A stretch of 64,000 nucleotides of DNA from Tenrec ecaudatus. Its lineage: Eukaryota; Chordata; Mammalia; Afrosoricida; Tenrecidae. Shown in pieces: positions 7,773 through 63,179 of the stretch (the stretch's first letter is position 1; each line of letters starts with the position of its first letter). The translations under genes were made by a program, and so were the position numbers. The stretch covers positions 130,376,731 through 130,440,730 of the forward strand of contig NC_134535.1 of assembly GCF_050624435.1 (NCBI RefSeq), written 5' to 3'. Under the pieces are notes generated by a model. It saw nothing but the letters and a program-made list of their open reading frames with translations, was not told where the DNA came from and searched no databases.

Positions 7773-9900
7773 ATTTGAGGAAGCACATTATTCTTAAATT
7801 GCGAGTGACATTGGAATCCAGGGTCTATCTCCCAAGGTTTGTGCGCACACAGCCTATATTTTTTTAAGTGAAGAAATCATACACATTTTCGTCAAGATGT
7901 TAGTTAGATTCGGTACTGGAAAGATGTCTGGCAAGCACGGTCCCGGTAGCCTAGGTTCCTGCATTGTGAAACAAATGCCAGGAGTCTATCTTGAATCTGC
8001 AGCAAAGCGGCCAACACCTTGACTGCTAGCAAGAGTTCATCCACTTGCTTACGTGTCAGTGTTTGAAGTGACGACAAATCGACATTCATTTTACAGCTTC
8101 TGGGTGCATAAACTAGGTGGAGAGCTGCCATATGCGTCTGCGCCTGTGTTCACAAATAACTTTGCGTAAGTGGCACTTATTTTAAGAAATTGTAAGCCGA
8201 GAGATGAATCCATGTGGCTCAGAGATTCCAGCAGCAGGAGATGGCAGCCAGGCGCGAGGACAGGCGGGTCTGGTTCCAAGTCTGCGTGCAGATTCCCAAG
8301 CCTGTTCCCTCTTTCATTACACACGTGACCCAGAGAGCCCGGGATCCGAAGGCCGTGACCAGTGGATGCCTTCCATCCTTTCTTGCCAGTCCATGAATGC
8401 TTTTAGGAAAATCATTTTTAAGACTTTATTAAAAAAAATTTAGTTTGCAGGATGGCCCATCTAGGCACTTAGGTTCCTCTGTTGCTGGAGAAGGACATTT
8501 AGCCGATTTAAAAGGGGCAAAATGATGGGAAGGGAACGTAACCAAGCAGAGGTGTCATTTAGGAACCTGGAACGACACACCCACCGCACTAACTGCAATG
8601 TTAAAGTTGCATGTTAATTTTTCGTCTGAAGATAGACGCAGCCAAGGGTCTAAACTGTCCACCGGTTTGACACGCACCCCCCAACAACACTATTTCGAAG
8701 ATGCAAGCTGGACAACCTGTGGTGAGAGTCCACTCCTTTCGCCCCATGGCCACGTGACGCACCGAGAAGCTGTGCCCCAAGATGGTTTATTGTTTCATAC
8801 AATTCATTCGTACCTAACTAAGAGCAATAAAAGAGGTACACAAAACTAAATGATAAGAAAGGATTATAAAATAGGAGGGAAAATATTAAATAAAACCTGG
8901 CCCAAACCAACAGAGCTGTTAGTTAAGGTATTTCCATGTAGCTTCTTAATTGGCATCCTCACTCACCTTGTTCTTCGCTGTGATCCGAGCACCACCTGCC
9001 ATGCGAGGTCTCCTTCACCATCTTTTCACTGTGGGAGGAGGATCCCACGCCTTTAGAAGTAGGCCGATTAGACACTAGTCAGCGTGTTTGATAGGTTAGA
9101 AATAGCTGATTTCGCTTCTCTCAACATATGTTCAAATTTGAAAACAACAACCAAAAAAAACCCAAACCCGTTCCACTTCTGCCAAACGTGCAGCAACTGT
9201 TCTGATACGATTTTCGGCTCTTGGAACGCTTTCCGGCGCTGCATGCTGCGCTCATCACATCTCGCGGGGGTGTGGGGTGCCCACAGAGCTGAAACGCAGG
9301 CCAGTGTCCCCCTCTGGTGGTGGGGCACTTTTCCTCTTTCCATCTAGGTTTGTTTATGGGAGTAACAAACACAGGGAATGAAACGTGGTATTTGATTAAC
9401 AGTATAATGAGTTTTATGAAATGAATAAATAGTCCAAGCATAGTCCCATCTAATTTTTTTATGCCTACCCATGGACGGAAGGAACCCCAGTAAGAGTGCT
9501 TAGATGAAGCAGCCGTGCAGGAGACTGTCCAGGAGAGTCAGGAGTGCCATTTGGGAGTCCCACCCACTTTAAGGAGAACCCGGATGACAAGTGTCATTTT
9601 AACCACCGCTTTGGTGAATTCAATTGAAAAATTAAGTCTCTCTTCTGGCGGGAAGCAGCTGAATCCCTCCCCCGACATCATTATCCCTTTCCAAATGATC
9701 CCACCCTGGTGCTCAGCCCCCATGACTGAGCTTTTTAAAATTCAATAGCTGGAGCCTGATCAGAAGGGGGTGTGTATGGGACTGGCATGCCGACTGGAAC
9801 AACTTCAAATTCTCAATGGAATCCGGAGCTTCTGGAGCCATTGAAGCTGGGTGAACACCTGGTACCTAATGTGTTAGATGATCCCCTGAACGAAGGCACG
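7773..9900. other. Unassigned, AT-richer intergenic sequence
   Basis: It includes short poly-A runs near 8430 and 9150 and a small cluster of CpGs at about 9205-9275 that is too short to call an island. Confidence 0.55.
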
Positions 9901-10095
9901 AGGAGCCCTGGTGGCATCGTGGTTATGTGTTGGGCTGCAATCTGCAAGGTCAGTGGTTCAAAGCCACCTCCCAGTCCTCAGGAGAAAGACAGGGCTTTCT
10001 ACTCCAGGGAAGAGTCACAGCCTCCATACTCAGAGGCAATTCTACCTCGTCCTGTAGGGTCGCTATGTGTCAGCAACGGCTGGAGGGTGGCATAT
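9901..10095 (+). mobile_element. AfroSINE close to the minisatellite
   Basis: It shows aggagccctggtggcatcgt, gtgttgggctgcaatctgc, aaggtcagtggttcaaagcc and tgtagggtcgctatgtgtca. It ends about 245 bases before the 24-base array begins. Confidence 0.87.
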
Positions 10096-10337
10096 TTGGG
10101 ATCGGTTTGGGAGAGGGCATGAAACCTTGCAGTGAGAATCCTCTCCAAGCGAGGGGCACCCAGCTGGAGTGGCAGTGAGATGGGACCACACCCACACAGG
10201 TACACACCCAGAAGTAGCGTGGCCACACCAGATGAGGAGTCCGACTTCAGTGGGCTGAGTTGAGACAGAAGTCCTGCATATCTAGTTACTTAGTTCCCGG
10301 GTGTGCTGCTCGCGCTGCTGCGCTGATGCCTGCTTGC

Positions 10338-13300
10338 AGAAGCACCTGTGCAGTCTGTGACAGAAGACCCAGTGGAGGCTGTAACAGGGACTCCAGTGCA
10401 GGCTGTGACGGAGGACCCAGTGCAGGCTGTAACAGGTACTCCAGTGCAGGCTGTGGCAGAGGACCCAGTGCAGGCTGTAACAGGGACTCCAGTGCAGGCT
10501 GTGGCAGAGGGCCCAGGGCAGGCTGTGACAGGGGCTCCAGTGCAGGCTGTGACAGGGGCTCCAGTGCAGGCTGTGACAGAGGGCCCAGTGAAGGCTGTGA
10601 CAGGGGCTCGAGTGCAGGTTGTGACAGAGGCTCCAGTGCAGTCTGTGACAGAGGGCCCAGTGCAGGCTGTGACAGGGGCTCCAGTGCAGGTGGTGGCAGA
10701 GGGCCCAGTGCAGGCTGTGGCAGAGGGCCCAGTGCAGGCTGTTACAGGGGCTCCAGTGAAGGCTGTGACAGGGGCTCCAGTGAAGGCTGTGACAGGGGTT
10801 CCAGTGCAGTCTGTGACAGAGGACGCAGTGCAGGCTGTGACAGAGGCTCCAGTGCAGGCTGTGACAGAGGCTCCAGTGCAGGCTGTGGCAGAGGGCCCAG
10901 TGCAGGCTGTGACAGGAGCTCCAGTGCAGGCTGTGACAGAGGACCCAGTGCAGGCTGTAACAGGGACTCCAGTGCAGACTGTGGCAGAGGGCCCAGGGCA
11001 AGCTGTGACAGGGGCTCCAGTGCAGGCTGTGACAGGGGCTACAGTGCAGTCTGTGACAGAGGGCCCAGAGAAGGCTGTGACAGGGGCTCGAGTGCAGGTT
11101 GTGACAGATGCTCCAGTGCAGTCTGTGACAGAGGGCCCAGTGCAGGCTGTGACAGGGGCAACCAGTGCAAGCTGTGACAGGGGCACCAGTGCAGGCTGTG
11201 ACAGAGGCTCCAGTGCAGTCTGTGAGAGAAGGCCCAGTGCAGGCTGTGACAGGGGGTCCAGAGCAGGCTGTGGCAGAGGGCCCAGTGCAGGCTGTGGCAG
11301 AGGGCCCAGTGCAGGCTGTGACAGGGGCTCCAGTGCAGGCTGTGACAGGGGCTCCAGTGAAGGCTGTGACAGGGGCTCTAGTGCAGTCTGTGACAGAGGG
11401 CCCAGTGCAGGCTGTGACAGAGGCTCAGTGCAGGCTGTGACAGGGGCTCCAGTGCAGGCTGTGGCAGACGCCCAGTGCAGGCTGTGACAGGGGCTCCAGT
11501 GCAGGCTGTGACAGAGGACACAGTGCAGGCTGTAACATGGACTCCAGTGCGGGCTGTGGCAGAGGACCCAGTGCAGGCTGTAACAGGGACTCCAGTGCAG
11601 GCTGGGGCAGAGAACCCAGGGCAGGCTGTGAGAGGGGCTCCAGTGCAGGCTGTAACAGGGGCTTCAGTGGAGGCTGTGACAGAGGCTCCAGTGCAGGCTG
11701 TGACAGAGGCTCCAGTGCAGTCTGTGACAGAAGGCCCAGTGCAGGCTGTGACAGGGGCTCCAGTGCAGGCTATGGCAGAGGGCCCAGTGCAGGCTGTGGC
11801 AGAGGGCCCAGTGCAGGCTGTGACAGGGGCTCCAGTGCAGGCTGTGACAGGGGCTCCAGTGAAGGCTGTGACAGGGGCTCCAGTGCAGTCTGTGACAGAG
11901 GGCCCAGTGCAGGCTGTGACAGAGGCTCCAGTGCAGGCTGTGACTGGGGCTCCAGTGCAGGCTGTGACAGAGGACCCAGTGCAGGCTGTAACAGGGACTC
12001 CAGTGCAGGCTGTGACAGGGGCTCCAGTGCAGGCTGTGACAGGGGCTTCAGTGGAGGCTGTGACAGAGGCTCCAGTGCAGGCTGTGACAGAGGCTCCAGT
12101 GCAGTCTGTGACAGAAGGCCCAGTGCAGGCTGTGACAGGGGCTCCAGTGCAGGCTATGGCAGAGGGCCCAGGGCAGGCTGTGACAGGGGCTCCAGTGGAG
12201 GCTGTGACAGGGGCTCCAGTGCAGGCTGTGACAGAGGGCCCAGTGCAGTATGTGACAGGGGCTCCAGTGCAGGCTGTGACAGAGGCTCCAGTGCAGTCTG
12301 TGACAGAGGGCCCAGTGCAGGCTGTTTCAGGGGCTCCAGTGCAGGCTGTGACAGGGGCTCCATTGCAGTCTGTGACAGAGAGCCCAGTTCAGGCTGTGAC
12401 AGGGGCTCCAGTGCAGGCTGTGACAGAGGCGCCAGTGCAGGCTGTGGCAGAGGGCCCAGTGCAGGCTGTAACAGGGACTCCAGTGCAGGCTGGGGCAGAG
12501 AACCCAGGGCAGGCTGTGACAGGGGCTCCAGTGCAGGCTGTGACAGGGGCTTCAGTGGAGGCTGTGACAGAGGATCCAGTGCAGGCTGTGACAGAGGCTC
12601 CAGTGCAGTCTGTGACAGAAGGCCCAGTGCAGGCTGTGACAGGGCCTCCAGTGCAGGCTATGGCAGAGGGCCCAGTGCAGGCTGTGGCAGAGGGCCCAGT
12701 GCAGGCTGTGACAGGGGCTCCAGTGCAGGCTGTGACAGGGGCTCCAGTGAAGGCTGTGACAGGGGCTCCAGTGCAGTCTGTGACAGAGGGCCCAGTGCAG
12801 GCTGTGACAGATGCTCCAGTGCAGGCTGTGACTGGGGCTCCAGTGCAGGCTGTGGCAGAGGACCCAGTGCAGGCTGTAACAGGGACTCAAGTGCAGGCTG
12901 TGGCAGAGGACCCAGGGCAGGCTGTGACAGGGGCTCCAGTGCAGGCTGTGACAGGAGCTTCAGTGGAGGCTGTGACAGAGGCTCCAGTGCAGTCTGTGAC
13001 AGAGGGCCCAGTGCAGGCTGTGACAGAGGCTCCAGTGCAGTCTGTGACAGAGGGCCCACTGCAGGCTGTGACAGGGGCTCCAGTGCAGGCTGTGACAGAG
13101 GACCCAGTGCAGGCTGTAACAGGGACTCCAGTGCAGGCTGTGGCAGAGGGCCCAGGGCAGGCTGTGACAGGGGCTTCAGTGCAGGCTGTGACAGGGGCTC
13201 CAGTGCAGTCTGTGACAGAGGGCCCAGTGAAGGCTGTGACAGGGGCTCTAGTGAAGGCTGTGACGGGTTCCAGTGCAGTCTGTGACAGAGGGCGCAGTGC

Positions 13301-16300
13301 AGGCTGTGACAGAGGCTCCAGTGCAGGCTGTGACAGAGGCGCCAGTGCAGGCTGTGGCAGAGGGCCCAGTGCAGGCTGTGACAGGAGCTCCAGTGCAGGC
13401 TGTGACAGAGGACACAGTGCAGGCTGTAACAGGGACTCCAGTGCAGGCTGTGGCAGAGGACTCAGTGCAGGCTGTAACAGGGACTCCAGTGCAGGCTGTG
13501 GCAGAGGGCCCAGGGCAAGCTGTGACAGGGGCTCCGTGCAGGCTGTGACAGGGGCTACAGTGCAGTCTGTGACAGAGGGCCCAGTGAAGGCTGTGACTGG
13601 GGCTCGAGTGCAGGTTGTGACAGATGCTCCAGTGCAGTCTGTGACAGAGGGCCCAGTGCAGGCTGTGACAGGGGCTCCAGTGCAAGCTGTGACAGGGGCA
13701 CCAGTGCAGGCTGTGACAGAGGCTCCAGTGCAGTCTGTGAGAGAAGGCCCAGTGCAGGCTGTGACAGGGGCTCCAGTGCAGGCTGTGGCAGAGGGCCCAG
13801 TGCAGGCTGTGGCAGAGGGCCCAGTGCAGGCTGTGACAGGGGCTCCAGTGCAGGCTGTGACAGGGGCTCCAGTGCAGGCTGTGGCAGAGGGCCCAGTGCA
13901 GTCTGTGACAGAGGGCCCAGTGCAGGCTGTGACAGAGGCTCCAGTGCAGGCTGTGACAGGGGTTCCAGTGCAGGCTGTGGCAGAGGGCCCAGTGCAGGCT
14001 GTGACAGGGGCTCCAGTGCAGGCTGTGACAGAGGACCCAGTGCAGGCTGTAACAGGGACTCAAGTGCGGGCTGTGGCAGAGGACCCAGTGCAGGCTGTAA
14101 CAGGGACTCCAGTGCAGGCTGTGGCAGAGGACCCAGGGCAGGCTGTGACAGGGGCTCCAGTGCAGGCTGTGACAGGGGCTTCAGTGGAGGCTGTGACAGA
14201 GGCTCCAGTGCAGGCTGTGACAGGGGCTCCAGTGCAGGCTGTGGCAGAGGGCCCAGTGCAGGCTGTGACAGGGGCTCCAGTGCAGGCTGTGACAGGGGCT
14301 CCAGTGCAGTCTGTGACAGAGGGCCCAGTGCAGGCTGTTTCAGGGGCTCCAGTGCAGGCTGTGACAGGGGCTCCATTGCAGTCTGTGACAGAGAGCCCAG
14401 TTCAGGCTGTGACAGGGGCTCCAGTGCAGGCTGTGACAGAGGCTCCAGTGGAGTCTGTGACAGAGGGCCCAGTGCAGGCTGTGGCAGAGGGCCCAGTGCA
14501 GGCTGTGACAGGGACTCCAGTGCAGGCTGTGGCAGAGGGCCCAGGGCAGGCTGTGACAGGGGCTCCAGTGCAGGCGGTTACAGAGGCTCCAGTGGAGTCT
14601 GTGACAGAGGGCCCAGTGCAGGCTGTGACAGAGGCTCCAGTGCAGGCTGTGACAGGGGCTCCAGTGCAGGCTGTGGCAGAGGGCCCAGGGCAGGCTGTGA
14701 CAGGTGCTCCAGTGAAGGCTGTGACAGGGGCTCCAGTGCAGGCTGTGACAGAGGGCTCAGTGCAGGCTGTGACAGGGGCTACTGTGCAGGCTGTGACAGG
14801 GGCTCCAGTGCAGGCTGTGACAGAGGGCCCAGTGCAGGCTGTAACAGGGACTCCAGTGCAGGCTGTGGCAGAGGGCCCAGGGCAGGCTATGACAGGGGCT
14901 CCAGTGGAGGCTGTGACAGGGGCTCCAGTGAAGGCTGTGACAGGGGCTCCAGTGCAGGCTGTGACAGAGGGCCCAGTGCAGGCTGTGACAGGGGCTCCAG
15001 TGCAGGCTGTGACAGAGGGCCCAGGGCAGGCTGTGACAGGGGCTCCAGTGCAGGCTGTGACAGAGGGCCCAGTGCCGGCTGTGGCAGAGGGCCCAGTGCA
15101 GGCTGTGACAGAGGACCCAGTGCAGGCTGTAACAGGCACTCCAGTGCAGGCTGTGACAGAAGACCCAGTGCAGGCTGTAACAGGGACTCCAGTGCAGGCT
15201 GTGGCAGAGGGCCCTGGGCAGGCTGTGATCGGGGCTCCAGTGGAGGCTGTGACAGGGGCTCCAGTGCAGTCTGTGACAAAGGACCCAGTGCAGGCTGTGA
15301 CAGGGGCTCTAGTGCAGGCTGTGACACCGGCTCCAGTGCGGTCTGTGACAGAGGGCCCAGTGCAGGCTGTGACAGGTGCTCCAGTGAAGGCTGTGACAGG
15401 GGCTCCAGTGCAGGCTCTGGCAGAGGGCCCAGTGCAGGCTGTGGCAGAGGGCCCAGTGCAGGCTGTGACAGAGGACCCAGTGCAGGCTGTAACAGGGACT
15501 CCAGTGCAGGCTGTGGCAGAGGGCCCAGGGCAGGCTGTGACAGGGGCTCCAGTGGAGGCTGTGACAGGGGCTCCATTGCAGTCTGTGACAGAGGGCCCAG
15601 TGCAGGCTGTGACAGGGGCTCCAGTGAAGGCTGTGACAGGGGCTCCAGTGCAGGCTGTGACAGTGGGCCCAATCCAGGCTGTAACAGGGACTCCAGTGCA
15701 GGCTGTGACAGAGGGCCCAGGGCAGGCTGTGACAGGGGCTCCAGTGGAGGCTGTGACAGGGGCTCCAGTGCTGTCTGTGACAGAGGGTCCAGTGCAGGCT
15801 GTGACAGGGGCTCCAGTGCAGGCTGTGACAGAGGGCCCAGGGCAGGCTGTGACAGGGGCTCCAGTGCAGGCTGTGACAGGGGCTCCAGTGCAGTCTGTGA
15901 CAGAGGGCCCAGTGCAGGCTGTGACAGGGGCTCCAGTGCAGGCTGTGACAGAGGCTCCAGTGGAGTCTGTGACAGAGGGCCCAGTGTAGGCTGTGACAGA
16001 GGCTCCAGTGCAGGGTGTGACAGGGGCTCCAGTGCAGGCTGTGGCAGAGGGCCCAGGGCAGGCTGTGACAGGTGCTCCAGTGAAGGCTGTGACAGGGGCT
16101 CCAGTGCAGGCTGTGACAGAGGGCTCAATGCAGGCTGTGACAGGGGCTCCTGTGCAGGCTGTGACAAGGGCTCCAGTGCAGGCTGGGGCAGAGGGCCCAG
16201 TGCAGGCTGTAACAGGGACTCCAGTGCAGGCTGTGGCAGAGGGCCCAGTGCAGGCTGTGACAGGGGCTCCAGTGGAGGCTGTGACAGGGGCTCCAGTGCA

Positions 16301-17111
16301 GTCTGTGACAGAGGGCCCAGTGCAGGCTGTGACAGAGGCTCCAGTGCAGGCTGTGACAGGGGCTCCAGTGCAGGCTGTGGCAGAGGGCCCAGTGCAGGCT
16401 GTAACAGGGACTCCAGTGCAGGCTGTGGCAGAGGGCCCAGGGCAGGCTGTGACAGGGGCTCCAGTGGAGGCTGTGACAGGGGCTCCAGTGCAGGCTGTGG
16501 CAGAGGCTCCAGTGCAGGCTGTGACAGAGGGCCCAGTGCAGGCTGTGACAGGGGCTCCAGTGCAGGCTGTGACAGGGGCTCCAGTGCAGGCTGTGACAGG
16601 GGCTCCAGTGCAGGCTGTGACAGAGAGCCCAGTGCAGGCTGTGACAGGGGCTCCAGTGCAGTCTGTGACCGAGGGTCCAGTACAGGCTGTGACAGTGGCT
16701 CCAGTTCAGGCTGTGACAGAGGCTCCAGTGGAGTCTGTGACAGGGGCTCCAGTGCAGGCTGTGGCAGAGGGCCCAGGGCAGGCTGTGACAGGGGCTCCAG
16801 TGGAGGCTGTGACAGGGGCTCCAGTGCAGGCTGTGACAGAGGGCCCAGTGCAGTATGTGACAGGGGCTCCAGTGCAGGCTGTGACAGAGGCTCCAGTGCA
16901 GGCTGTGGCATAGGGCCCAGTGCAGGCTGTGGCAGAGGGCCCAGTGCAGGCTGTGACAGGGACTCCAGTGCAGGCTGTGGCAGAGGACCCAGGGCAGGCT
17001 GTGACAGGGGCTCCAGTGGAGGCTGTGACTGGGGCTCCAGTGCAGGCTTTGACAGAGGGCCCAGTGCAGGCTGTGGCAGGGGCTCCAGTGCAGGCTGTGA
17101 CAGAGGGCCAT
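10338..17111. repeat. Giant minisatellite: about 282 copies of a 24-base unit
   Basis: From gcacctgtgcag near 10343 to the loss of pattern at 17111 the sequence is an unbroken head-to-tail array of a 24-base unit; a clean copy is 16560-16583. The parts of the unit are GTGCAGGCTGT, then GACAGGGGCT, then CCA. Common variants change the middle (gacaggggct, gacagagggc, ggcagagggc, gacagaggac, aacagggact) or the start (gtgaagg, gtggagg, gtgcagtc, gggcagg). The unit is about two-thirds GC, with 10 G to 6 C on the + strand, and the consensus lacks CpG. Five of its six reading frames have no stop, so long ORFs appear on both strands (for example 11475-15989 + and 14887-16911 -). In the + frame it reads VQAVTGAP, VQAVTEGP and similar. 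Five indels not divisible by three and two in-frame TAG changes are present. It is most simply a non-coding VNTR. No transcription signal was recognised, although a spliced coding use cannot be excluded from sequence alone. Confidence 0.97.
11475..15989 (+). other. 1504-codon open frame inside the minisatellite (probably not a gene)
   Basis: This is the longest open frame in the window. It consists of the 8-residue repeats VQAVTGAP, VQAVTEGP, VQAVAEGP, VQSVTEGP and VEAVTGAP. Around 13264 a two-base deletion shifts it to the SAGCDRGS frame, and a one-base deletion around 13537 returns it to the first frame. It ends where CAG has become TAG (15987-15989). The frame resumes at once and meets another TAG at 16911-16913. 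There is no signal peptide, unique domain, Kozak-like start or conserved flank. It is listed so that it is not mistaken for a gene. Confidence 0.8.
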
Positions 17112-34415: not shown

Positions 34416-34845
34416 TTCACTCAGTCCCTCAGTCAGATAGTCACTCACTCATCCAGTTACTTATTCACTCACTCAGTCACTCAGTAATTCAATCATTCAT
34501 TCACTCACTCAGTAAGTCAGCCACTTATTCATTCACTCACTCAGTCACTCAGTAATTCAATCATTCATTCACTAATTCACTCAGTAAGTGAGCTTTCACT
34601 CAATCACTCACTCAGTAACTCACTCATTCACTCACTCACTCAGCCACTTACCCAGTCACTCACTCAGCCCTTACTTACTCACTCACTCACTCATTCAGTA
34701 ATTCAATCATTCATTCATTCACTCATTCAGTGTGTCAGCCACCCATTCACTCACTCACTCAGTCAGCCACTTACTCACTCGGTCCCGCAGTCATTCGCTT
34801 AGTCACTCAGTCACCCAGTCCCTCCCTCCTTCCCTCCCTCAGTCC
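34416..34845. repeat. Degenerate (TCAC)n / (TCAN)n tract
   Basis: About 430 bases are built from tetramers cact, cagt, catt and aatt in irregular order (actcactcactcag and similar), with longer near-copies about 110 bases apart (aattcaatcattcattcact). Confidence 0.93.
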
Positions 34846-36539
34846 CTCAGTGCTTCGGCCCCTCAGTCAGATGTGACTGTAAGTGCTGGGAACACAGCAG
34901 TGAGACTTATGTGGACAAGCTCCAGGCATTAGGAATATCATGTGAGCCCCCAACATTATTTAAGGTTTTTCCAGTAGCTTCATTAAACAAAGTAAAGGAA
35001 ATAAGTGAAATTAATTTCATAATATACTTTCTTGAATCTAATACACCCAAAAAAGTACCCAAAGGAACAATGGTTGGTAAGTACTCAGCTACAAACAGAG
35101 CGGCTCAGTGGGGGAGAGAGCCAGAGATCTGCTTCCACAGAGATTATAACCTAGAGGGATGGACTCCATCCAGGCCCACATTGAGATTTGAAAGAATATT
35201 TTTACATGCATATTTGTATATGCTCTAAATAGATCCATCTATATCGTAGAGCATACGAAGTTATGAAAATTTCTTAGCCACAACCAAATAGCTTGTAAGA
35301 ATGCGTCAGTGGTCTTGGGGCTTAGGACCATTACCATGGGAGATCGCTAAGTCTCTGAATGACATAGTTCACCAAGACAATGCTCTACACTGTATGGTGG
35401 TAAGTCGAGATTAGAGTCTTAAAAACTTGAGTTACCATCTACGTTGCAACTATGGGCCTCTCTCAGACTAGAAGAAAGAAGAGAGAGGAAAATAAAAGAC
35501 TTGAGGAGATGATTAGACCCACAGATGAATGGGCCAGGTGAACCACAGCCTCCTTTGAGAGCAGAAGAACTAGATGGTGCCCAGCTGCCACTGCTAACTG
35601 GTTTGATGGGGACCACGGGAGGGGCTGGACCAAATGGGAGAGAAACATAGAACAGAACTGAAAGCCATTAAAAAGACCAGACTTATTGGTTTAATAGACT
35701 GGTGGGGCCACTCAGACTACGGATCGTAGACAACCTTCACACCTGGAACTAAGCCCACTCCTGGAGATCACCCGTCAGCCAAGCAACAGGCCATCAAAGT
35801 GGCCATGACACTCACGAGGTAGGGACTCCTCAGAAGCATCCACTATTTGAGAGCAAAAGGACAGCATTTACCCAAAAGCAAAGCTCAGACGGCAAGAAGG
35901 ATGGCTGGAAATGGGGAACCCTCGGAGGAAGTGGGGAGAGCACTGTTATATTGAGGGGATTGCAATGACTGTCCTACAACAAAACTGTGCATCAGTTGTT
36001 GAATGGAACACCACATTTCTCTGTAAACTTTCACCCAAATCACAGTTAAAAAAAACCCAAAAGGCAACTTCAGCCTAGAATTCCCAATGGGACAATTGTA
36101 CTCCATCACACGGGGTTGTGGTAAGTCAAGCATTAGCTCAACAGCATCCAGAAACAACCACAACAGAGTCCACAATCATTTCAGTATGGAATCAATCTGA
36201 AGAAGTACTAATGATATATTCTTACACCCCTTTGAAGTTAGGCCTTTGAAATCTGGGATATATTTTACAGCCATTTGAATTAGTCCCAGCTCAGGTGCCC
36301 CATAGCCTCCTGTGATTTCCACGGCCGTGAACTTCTCAGGCTTAGAAGCGTGACTCTGCCAACCACCAGCGGGGGACACCATCTCCCACAGTGCTCAGTC
36401 CCACCTCCCAGAGGCACACTGAGTTCATGGCGAACGAGGGAGAATATCCGTCTCGCACAGTCTTACCTAGTCTGTGGGCTCAGGTAATGGGACGGCACCG
36501 AACTATTCTCTCTCTAATCATCGTCATCGTAAAATAACA
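34846..36539. other. Unassigned, AT-rich sequence, possibly an old repeat
   Basis: Stretches such as ggcttaggaccattaccatg and ggtgaaccacagcctccttt look like decayed repeat, but I could not assign a family. Confidence 0.4.
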
Positions 36540-41124: not shown

Positions 41125-41256
41125 TCACACCCACGGTAAGAGTGTGCTATTGAACTTCACACCCACGGTAATAGTGTGCTATTGAACCTCACACCCACGG
41201 TACTAGTGTGCTATTGAACTTCACACCTATGGTAATAGTGTGCTATTGAACTTCAT
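41125..41256. repeat. 32-base minisatellite, four copies
   Basis: Copies start at 41125, 41157, 41189 and 41221, each tcacacccacggtaatagtg followed by tgctattgaac. Spacing is exactly 32 bases, and the copies differ at one to three positions. Confidence 0.93.
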
Positions 41257-56330: not shown

Positions 56331-56546
56331 ATGGCTACCCCCAACAAGAGGGTGGTCTCCAGACCCCAGAGACCTGGCCGGGTGCCAAAGGGGAGTGGGA
56401 CCCCCTCGAGTCCCCTGGACAGCCCAGACTGGAAGGCCCCCCAGGAGCAGATGCCCAGCCAGGTGGCCATGCTGAGAAAGGCCCAAGAATTCTTCCAGAC
56501 CTGCGATACTGAGGGCAAGGGCTTCATCGCCAGGAGGGATATGCAG
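56331..56546 (+). CDS. CRACR2A: CRACR2A, first coding exon (residues 1-72)
   Basis: CRACR2A is a cytosolic Ca2+ sensor. It binds the Orai1-STIM1 complex and promotes store-operated Ca2+ entry in lymphocytes; a long isoform is a large Rab GTPase (Rab46). This exon opens with ATG at 56331 (MATPNKRVVSRPQRP...) and encodes a low-complexity Pro/Ser-rich head. A helix (LRKAQEFFQTC) and the first EF-hand loop follow, residues 59-70 (DTEGKGFIARRD). Loop positions 1, 3, 6 and 12 are D, E, G and D; D rather than E at position 12 and K at position 5 make it a degenerate Ca2+ loop. The exon ends CAG|GTAAGT at 56546/56547, phase 0. The head and EF-hand match my memory of human CRACR2A far better than its paralogue CRACR2B. 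Reading continues open past the donor to 56615, but that part is intronic and runs into an AfroSINE. The start is chosen because it matches the family start. Confidence 0.93.
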
Positions 56547-59115: not shown

Positions 59116-60743
59116 GGGTCCCCCTGCATTGGGATGGAGCCTGTGGCCACTCATAGAATGAGGGTGGGGTGGGAGGAAGGATGCATGGAAGCATGAAGGC
59201 CTGGAATCTAGGTGGGAAGGAACGAGAGTCTTACCCTCCCTCAGGACGATGCCTTGTCTTCCTCATGAAGCTAAGCATCACCTTGCCCACACAGTGGACC
59301 GCCTCCTCAGCCCATATTCTCTCTCTGGGGTGTCTGAGACACCTGGCTGATGGGTTGTTGCTAAGCCAGAGATTCTGCTGTACGCTAAGCAGATGCACCT
59401 CTAGAATGTTTGCACACGCTTGGACTCTTCTTCTCATTTTTAAAAACCCATTCCTGTTTCATTTCATTCTTCCAATGGCTTCCTTGTCATCCTAACGCCC
59501 CCCTTTGTGACGCACCATTGTCTCCCTTATCCACACAGCCCAGCTCCCAGAAGGTCGCCACAGGACCATGTCACGTGTTCTCCTAAGTTGCCTTATGGGC
59601 CTTCACCCCTGTCAGCTCATTTTTATGTTCACATGGGTACGCACCTGCCTTCCCACAAAGCCCTGCGTTTATGGCCCTCCGCTGTCAGTCCCCTTCCCAC
59701 CAGCAATTCTGTGCAGGGCCTTCCCTTGCCCCTCGGGCAACTGGGAGAAAGGAGGCATGCCATCTGGGATGCAATGAGCTCCCCTGGGAAGTCCTCACTG
59801 GGAGGTTTGGATTTGGAGGGGACGAGAGGACACTGGCTCCAAGTTTGCAAGCCAGCCTTGTCCAGGGACCACTACACCTGTGGTGGAGGCCAGAAGGAGC
59901 GGACACAGCATGGCGACTGTGCTGCTCACCCCAGTGACTGGCTGGCTGCCCTTCCCTCCTCACTGGCTCCTTGTCAGCCCAGGGTGCATGTGCAGTGTTT
60001 GTTTATGATCAGTATCCAGCCCACCTTTAAAGCCCAGGTAGGGTTTGATCCCCGGAGAGGGCTGACACCTGAAGTGGGAGAAGGCAGCTGGCATCTCAGC
60101 AAAACAAAAAACCCAGCCCCATTGCCAAAGCGTCGGTTCCGTCCTTTCCTGTGCCTCTAGGACAAAGCTGTGGTCTTTACAGAAATACATCGCCCCCGAC
60201 TTTCGCTCTGGAGAAAAGTTCCGTTGGAACTGCTGACTTTTCCATTAGCAGCAACATGTTTATCTACACAGGGTGTGCCTTTTCAGACACAGAGATTACT
60301 GTTTGCAAGCCATATGGGGGCCGGGGGGCACACAGTAAAGTCTTTGGCATGGGGGCAGGTAATGTAGCCTCATGCTTTATCCGTAAAATGGTGCTGATAA
60401 GGCCAACCTCAAAGACTGCCATGAGAATTAAATGCAAATAAATATACATCCATATAGAATAGGTATAAGCCATACACATTATAGATATATTGATATGTCT
60501 ATGTGCACACACATACACACTGTGAGTTGCTTTGCACATGGGTTGGCACCCATGAAGTAGTAGAGGTTCTCATCTTCCAAGGAGAAAGAGGTACATCAGT
60601 CAGAAGGCATGACCTTGCTCCTGGCTTTTGATAGGCATGGACCCAGCTGTAGGCGTTCACTGGGCAGAAGGCGCTGGGGTTCAGAACAGGACAGCCGTCC
60701 ACGATCATCAGGGTGTTCACGGTGCTGTTTGGGTTGCTTTCAG

Positions 60744-60855
60744 AGGCTCCATAAGGAGCTGCCCCTCAGCCTGGAGGATCTGGAGGATGTGTTTGACGCC
60801 TTGGATGCTGATGGCAATGGCTTTCTGACCCCAGCGGAGTTTACTTCTGGATTTA
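60744..60855 (+). CDS. CRACR2A: CRACR2A, second coding exon (residues 73-109 plus one base)
   Basis: The exon follows a pyrimidine-rich acceptor (gggttgctttcag) and starts in phase 0 with [17 protein letters not shown]. It carries the second EF-hand, whose loop spans residues 93-104 ([12 protein letters not shown]). This loop is canonical, with D-D-N at positions 1, 3 and 5, G at 6 and E at 12, so it should bind Ca2+. The exon is 112 bases long and ends one base into a codon at GGA TTT A|GTAAGT (60855/60856). The EF-hand pair is split by a 4.2-kb intron between 56546 and 60744, consistent with the known exon layout of the family. An apparent short ORF starting at 60609 is only readthrough from the intron. 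Confidence is high because residues agree almost completely with mammalian CRACR2A. Confidence 0.94.
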
Positions 60856-60944
60856 GTAAGTGCTGATGGAGGCTGGGGGGTTCCTGAATGCTGGGTCTGC
60901 ACAAAGCTGCGCAAGGTATCTCCCTGCTCTTTCCTGATCTGGGG

Positions 60945-62115: not shown

Positions 62116-62153
62116 TCCTGCCTCACTCAGCCCCCTGTGCCGTGCCTCCCTAG

Positions 62154-62334
62154 GTCACTTCTTCTACAGCCAGAGCCATCCGAGTCAGACGGAGGCCGGT
62201 GACCCAGCGGCCGAGCTCCAGGAAGGGAAGGTGTATCAGTCCAGAGGGGAGGAGCAGGGTGGCACTGAGGAGGACGAGGAGGCCCAGTTCCAGCTGCTGA
62301 TGGACAGACTGGGAGCCCAGAAGATTTTGGAAGA
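62154..62334 (+). CDS. CRACR2A: CRACR2A, third coding exon (residues 110-169, incomplete gene)
   Basis: After the acceptor ctccctag the exon begins GT, completing the Ser110 codon left by the previous exon. It then reads [16 protein letters not shown] and an acidic linker, followed by [20 protein letters not shown], a segment diagnostic for CRACR2A that lies just before the coiled coil. It ends GAA GA|GTAAGT at 62334/62335, leaving two bases of the next codon. All 60 codons are open. The next exon, which should begin with the start of the coiled-coil region, is not visible before 64000, so the gene runs off the window. Just upstream of the acceptor, at about 62097-62115, is an uninterrupted run of about 19 G, an unusual neighbour for a 3' splice site. 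No other exon could be placed in 62335-64000. Confidence 0.92.
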
Positions 62335-63179
62335 GTAAGTTGGGACAGTGGTTTGGGGGAATGGCATCTCAGTGGGACCTTTCTGGCTGCACAACTCCGC
62401 CGACAGACCATTCTTAAGCACTTGGGACTTGTCTGAGACTCAGTCCTGCCAGCTCAGCAGCCTGCCCCCTCCCCCTCCCCACGTTTGTAGGGTGTCTTGC
62501 TGTTCGCAAGGACTGCCTGTGGTCTGTGGTCGAGGGGTTCTGTCTCTGACTGGCCCATGAGAAATGCTCGTATCTGACTGCCCCACCCTTGGCTCCTCTC
62601 CCTCTCTGTGGTGCATCTGCTTTAACACCCGTGGCACTGCACTGCTCCCCAAGGAGTGCTCACACTTCCGGGGTCTGTGCCACACTCTAAGGGGTCCTCA
62701 GGGGGCTTTGCCACTCAACACCGCCATCTCCACCACATCTTTGCATCCCTTGGACCCAACTGTGCTCCTCTGGGGCTGCAGAGCCTCCCTGCCGCCCTCA
62801 CCCATGGGCATGCCCCAGCAAGGACATCTACTGGGGAAGTGCTTATACCTATCTCCCTGAGCCCAACCCAACCCAACCTGCTTGGGAAGCTGAGGTGGGA
62901 AATGCACCCGGTTTTCCTAGCCCACCCCTCGGATGACCAGTAGCTCAGATGGATTTTTTTTAAGGTGGTCGTGTGAATGTCCCAGCCTTCAACCTAACTG
63001 TACTTACCCTGAAGTATGCCCCCTAAGTTCTTTGGAATATGGGTCCCAGGCCTGAAATAAATGTGAAAGGACTTTAAGGGTGATGTGGTAACTAATGGAA
63101 ACCGGACAACGGGCGTGAAAAGCATACGACACCTTCTGTTCTCTCTTCCCCTTGCCTTTTTCATGTTCATTGTTGGGTC
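62335..63179 (+). other. CRACR2A: CRACR2A intron after coding exon 3 (start)
   Basis: It begins with donor GTAAGT at 62335. No further exon was found, and three SINEs in a row occupy 63180-63700. Confidence 0.75.

Follow-up and report, generated by a model that had tools for sequence, protein, structure and literature searches.

Minisatellites are by definition tandem arrays of units of roughly 7–100 bases, which are termed VNTRs where the copy number differs between the chromosomes of a species and hypervariable where the germline mutation rate lies far above average. For satellite DNA the criterion is that the same unit forms large arrays at several loci, and in alpha satellite the higher-order repeats are multi-unit modules copied as blocks. 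The lower bound on unit length used here is that given in PMC8096271. The human minisatellites MSY1 and MS205 consist, like the array described below, of tandem short units with interspersed variants, and PMC2897807 attributes their growth to the copying of a single unit or of several neighbouring ones, proposing slippage for short segments and exchange or conversion for long ones. Human gene-proximal VNTRs are likewise tandem arrays near a gene, and in one such set lengths reach 2,373 bp at the 99th percentile and 8,938 bp at most (PMC11975116).

The array considered here lies in a 64,000-nucleotide stretch of the Tenrec ecaudatus genome (hereafter, the window) and, at 6.8 kb, exceeds the 99th percentile but not the maximum of that human set (PMC11975116). 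It differs from MSY1 and MS205 in its 282 units and in neighbours that are depleted of identity, and it is known from one assembly; MSY1 and MS205 have been studied by unit maps. Alpha satellite shares with it the block-copied multi-unit modules, but the modules here are a mixture of two, three and more units of no fixed length, and the exact 24-mer is confined to one locus. Judged by titles and abstracts, the literature on minisatellites, VNTRs and CRACR2A holds no description of this array that we could find, and we found no literature on elephant shrew minisatellites. We suggest that the array is very probably a non-coding and most likely neutral minisatellite, which grew by the copying of multi-unit blocks from a 48-base pair of units and then diverged by point mutation.

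Tandem Repeats Finder (TRF), run on the window, reports one array at 10337–17106 (period 24, 282.2 copies, 83% matches, 0% indels, score 8868), confirming the strict 24-base, roughly 282-copy array of 6.8 kb that a first-pass annotation of this DNA had placed at 10338–17111, and wrap-around alignment to the unit GCTCCAGTGCAGGCTGTGACAGGG yields 282 full units and two partial end units. The features on which the argument rests are the following (block copies are gap-free segments with approximate ends).

10337–17106, plus strand (the G-rich strand): minisatellite array of 24-base period with 282 full units, from TRF, wrap-around alignment and GC skew.
10342–10509, plus strand: left edge of the array, units 1–7, mostly alternating GAC- and ACT-type units (that is, 48-base modules), from the string of unit classes.
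10918–11772, plus strand: block of ~854 bp with a counterpart of 96.4% identity that lies 105 units downstream (from ~13435).
11160, plus strand: +1 indel within the array, from the alignment.
11423–11470, plus strand: a −1 indel in each of two units, which begin at 11423 and 11470, from the alignment.
11541–12160, plus strand: block of ~601 bp with a counterpart of 96.5% identity that lies 37 units downstream (from ~12429).
13245–13531, plus strand: two units with indels, which begin at 13245 (−2) and 13531 (−1), from the alignment.
14490–15070, plus strand: block of ~580 bp with a counterpart of 95.3% identity that lies 57 units downstream (from ~15858).
56331–56546, plus strand: exon with the CRACR2A start codon, outside the array, from tblastn (66% identity, E 3e-26).

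The indels thus number exactly five (+1, −1, −1, −2, −1), where about five with lengths that are not multiples of three had been noted; the aligner's +1/−1 pairs at 14752/14755 and 16120/16123 are ambiguities that represent substitutions, keep the 24-base register and are excluded from this count. Among the 282 full units 105 sequences are distinct, and mean pairwise unit identity is 85%. The head-to-tail arrangement of varying units, with its period, copy number and indels, bears out the assignment to minisatellites. With up to three mismatches allowed, the consensus unit matches 252 times in the window, while 100 shuffles gave 0.00 matches on average. The GC content of the array is 62–66% and its GC skew is ~0.25 throughout, in agreement with the description of one strand as G-rich. 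The majority unit is without CpG, as had also been stated, and the array as a whole has 19 CpG where 657 are predicted from base composition (observed/expected 0.03, compared with 0.34 in the remaining window). By contrast, the statement that most copies carry a run of four G does not hold, as there are only 109 runs of at least four G (and 232 of at least three) for 282 units.

The order of the units is far from random. Identity between neighbouring units is 0.829, against 0.852 after permutation (z −7.4; none of 2,000 permutations was as low), so that neighbours are less alike than random pairs of units, and only 2 of the 281 neighbouring pairs are identical, compared with 3.0% among all pairs. 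The strongest association between triplets links the last codon-sized triplet of a unit with the first of the next: units ending in GGG are followed by units starting in GCT or ACT, and those ending in GAG by GGC or GAC in most cases and by GCT in others. Successive units that start with xxC (that is, of GGC or GAC type) lie at a distance of two or three units in 71 of 102 cases, compared with ~39 under permutation. As similarity at a lag of two units is not raised (z 0.5), the array is not a plain dimer array; unit pairs and triplets are its building modules, and two- and three-unit modules predominate. This modular structure, which is absent from the first-pass annotation, is a modest new observation on the locus. 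The first seven units, with their mostly alternating GAC and ACT types, differ from the mixed interior, and may preserve part of an earlier 48-base arrangement.

Copying on a larger scale is seen when all unit lags are compared and the highest-scoring gap-free segments are taken: in addition to the three block copies listed above, a fourth extends over 743 bp at 93.7% identity. The best-matched block of 20 units is 97.3% identical to its counterpart, whereas in five shuffles of the units (for which every seventh start was scored) the best match was at most 91.0%. Exact internal repeats are short by comparison, the longest having 166 bp and eight pairs reaching at least 100 bp; the array has therefore diverged and is probably old, and a read length of a few hundred bases could be enough to resolve it. 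The earlier argument that a resolved array of this kind is rare because short-read assemblies collapse it is accordingly weak, although the length itself is still unusual. At a neutral rate near 2e-9 per site and year, the largest block copy, with its divergence of 3.6%, would be very roughly 9 million years old, an estimate that conversion would disturb. With such an age the array is probably present in close relatives too, and rapid turnover becomes less likely.

We compared these observations with simulations in which arrays grew from a founder of one or two units, with varied block sizes, and were tuned to the observed mean pairwise identity. Where the mean block was one or two units, z for neighbouring units was +3.8 to +48 in every one of the 80 runs. 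When growth began from two units and the mean block was 8, 16 or 32 units, 24 of 60 runs gave a z at or below that observed, compared with 0 of 20 for a mean block of four units and 0 of 120 for all runs with a one-unit founder; these figures hold under simplifications (that is, uniform mutation, Poisson block sizes, no conversion and four arbitrary differences between the founder units). The fit is imperfect, as identical neighbours, of which 2 are observed, are more numerous in the three best settings (medians of 11 to 12.5, with a minimum of 4). A first simulation, which was untuned (pair identity 0.25–0.41), reached a lowest z of only −5.5.

Taken together, these patterns would be explained if the founder was a pair of sister units (48 bases) that was amplified by tandem duplication, or by conversion-like copying, of multi-unit blocks of ~200 bp and longer, with ordinary point mutation following the block copying. 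Single-unit slippage would have contributed little, which we propose as the reason why neighbours differ more than random units do. As to the route of copying, a study of human pedigrees found none of 27 euchromatic de novo structural variants at a crossover, and its authors propose that larger motifs change by conversion-like or recombination routes (PMC12240836); the former result favours conversion-like copying over crossing-over between homologues. If alleles of the array vary in length, the differences would be expected mostly in blocks of many units and seldom in one unit. As a single locus the array is of little importance; what it usefully teaches is that a strict period conceals modules of two and three units with dissimilar neighbours, from which follows the prediction that such arrays change by blocks and not by single units.

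How readily the array changes length has been judged differently. The first-pass annotation took it to be a hypervariable VNTR, that is, an array with rapid gain and loss of units by slippage or unequal exchange and with widely different alleles, and its length and GC content as well as the faster mutation of larger human tandem-repeat loci (PMC12240836) would agree with this. However, the scarcity of identical neighbours, the greater difference between neighbours than between random pairs, the shortness of the exact internal repeats and the opposite sign given by every run of the one- and two-unit slippage models all point the other way, and we regard hypervariability as unlikely. In our reading of the unit order, the internal structure speaks against fast turnover of single units; whole blocks may be gained or lost. 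An extreme version would have single-unit slippage suppressed or purged here, with block copying as the sole form of change and the dissimilar neighbours themselves stabilizing the array, so that 6.8 kb would persist for long; this we consider distinctly improbable. No function is required to account for the array. A functional role without coding, such as regulation of CRACR2A or a part in methylation upstream of that gene, would be in keeping with the position of the array 39 kb upstream of that gene, with the near absence of CpG and with the rarity of CpG-creating transitions (4 over six sites, compared with 103 and 51 at two other A/T sites). Yet ordinary deamination of methylated CpG gives the same loss, the variants at the two sites used for comparison are common ones that duplication has spread, and the scarcity of CpG together with the rarity of CpG-making transitions is the pattern expected from loss of methylated CpG. 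Neither strand of the array has a canonical G-quadruplex motif, and six 96-base single strands, sampled from both strands at three places, show no better folding than their shuffles (z 0.2 to 3.5). We therefore hold a functional element to be very improbable on the sequence as it stands.

The remaining alternative is that the array is an exon encoding eight-residue repeats of a protein specific to the lineage, read in the APVQAVTG or the SSAGCDRG frame. Two plus-strand frames are open for 1523 and 1195 residues, the strict 24-base unit (that is, eight codons) preserves the frame, and the variants in the SSAGCDRG frame include no stops where 6.5 are expected. However, long open frames are what any stop-free 24-base unit produces, and several of the six run open for hundreds of residues; all five indels break the frame, and the APVQAVTG frame is interrupted by stops at 15989 and 16913. 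Over all 664 variants, two of the six frames combine a synonymous excess with fewer stops (258 synonymous changes against 180 expected in the plus-strand SSAGCDRG frame, with the stops just given; 294 against 227 in the minus-strand PLSQPALE frame, with 9 stops against 32), and three show a clear synonymous deficit. We set these counts aside because they stem from a small number of common variants that spread with the duplicated blocks, and are not independent; this falls short of a formal exclusion of coding. For the 112 rare variants, both synonymous and amino-acid changes lie near expectation in the three plus-strand frames, the synonymous ones numbering 34 against 29.3 expected (APVQAVTG, a slight excess), 31 against 28.5 and 27 against 27.5 (SSAGCDRG). 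Two protein searches, each of which scored only the ~8,000 candidates with the most words in common with the query, gave no convincing relative; one returned nothing, and the other a single partial match that covers 6% of the query at 40% identity (E 8e-6). On the frame-breaking indels, the rare-variant counts and these searches the coding reading was set aside, and we judge it extremely improbable; nothing found points to a protein, and the array is, with the same high confidence that we place in the explanation as a whole, probably non-coding. It is a real, long and diverged minisatellite, and looks ordinary in all but its unusual length.

A structured RNA or DNA was also considered and rejected: no Rfam family reaches its gathering score anywhere in the window, folding of the six 96-base pieces is not above that of shuffles, and canonical G-quadruplex motifs are absent. 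If the motif is relaxed to loops of up to 20 bases, 20 G-quadruplex motifs occur on the G-rich strand. The C-rich strand at 12000–12095, 14200–14295 and 16000–16095 folds worse than dinucleotide shuffles in all three places (z 3.2 to 3.5), which perhaps reflects merely that a repeat offers few pairing partners.

The genes around the array were placed by tblastn with human CRACR2A and PARP11 protein sequences, and by these queries the array sits between PARP11 and CRACR2A. The last PARP11 exons are ~95 kb before the array; the CRACR2A start codon follows its end by 39,225 bp, and further CRACR2A coding exons are found on the plus strand at 60738–60857 and around 62150–62416. The location upstream of CRACR2A that had been proposed is thus upheld, and, as the exons mapped for CRACR2A are coding ones, the array may be intergenic or lie within the first intron. 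The genome comprises 3.92 Gb in 2,140 contigs, and the window starts at 130.38 Mb of a 175.4-Mb contig, so that the array is not near the end of that contig. Exact matching of the 24-mer CAGTGCAGGCTGTGACAGGGGCTC across the 3.92 Gb gave 37 matches, all 37 inside the array. A 39-base pattern of the unit had no exact match in collections of prokaryote and viral contigs (genome_contigs and viral_contigs), so that exchange with microbes in either direction gained no support from exact matching. This result is uninformative on mammals and so on the conjecture of the first-pass annotation that the array is private to its lineage, for which the criterion would be absence from the orthologous interval of relatives.

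No second array longer than 500 bp with a period above 6 was found in the surrounding 164 kb. Within the window, TRF lists one further row of period 24 (34816–34868, 2.2 copies) and no more; it falls in a degenerate repeat region of ~450 bp (34417–34868) made up of TCAC, TCACTCAG and CAGTCCCTC repeats. Shortly before the array, a SINE-like stretch at 9900–10090 appears to resemble the afrotherian tRNA-derived SINE. A short array of a 32-base unit (4.1 copies, 92% matches by TRF) occupies 41125–41255.
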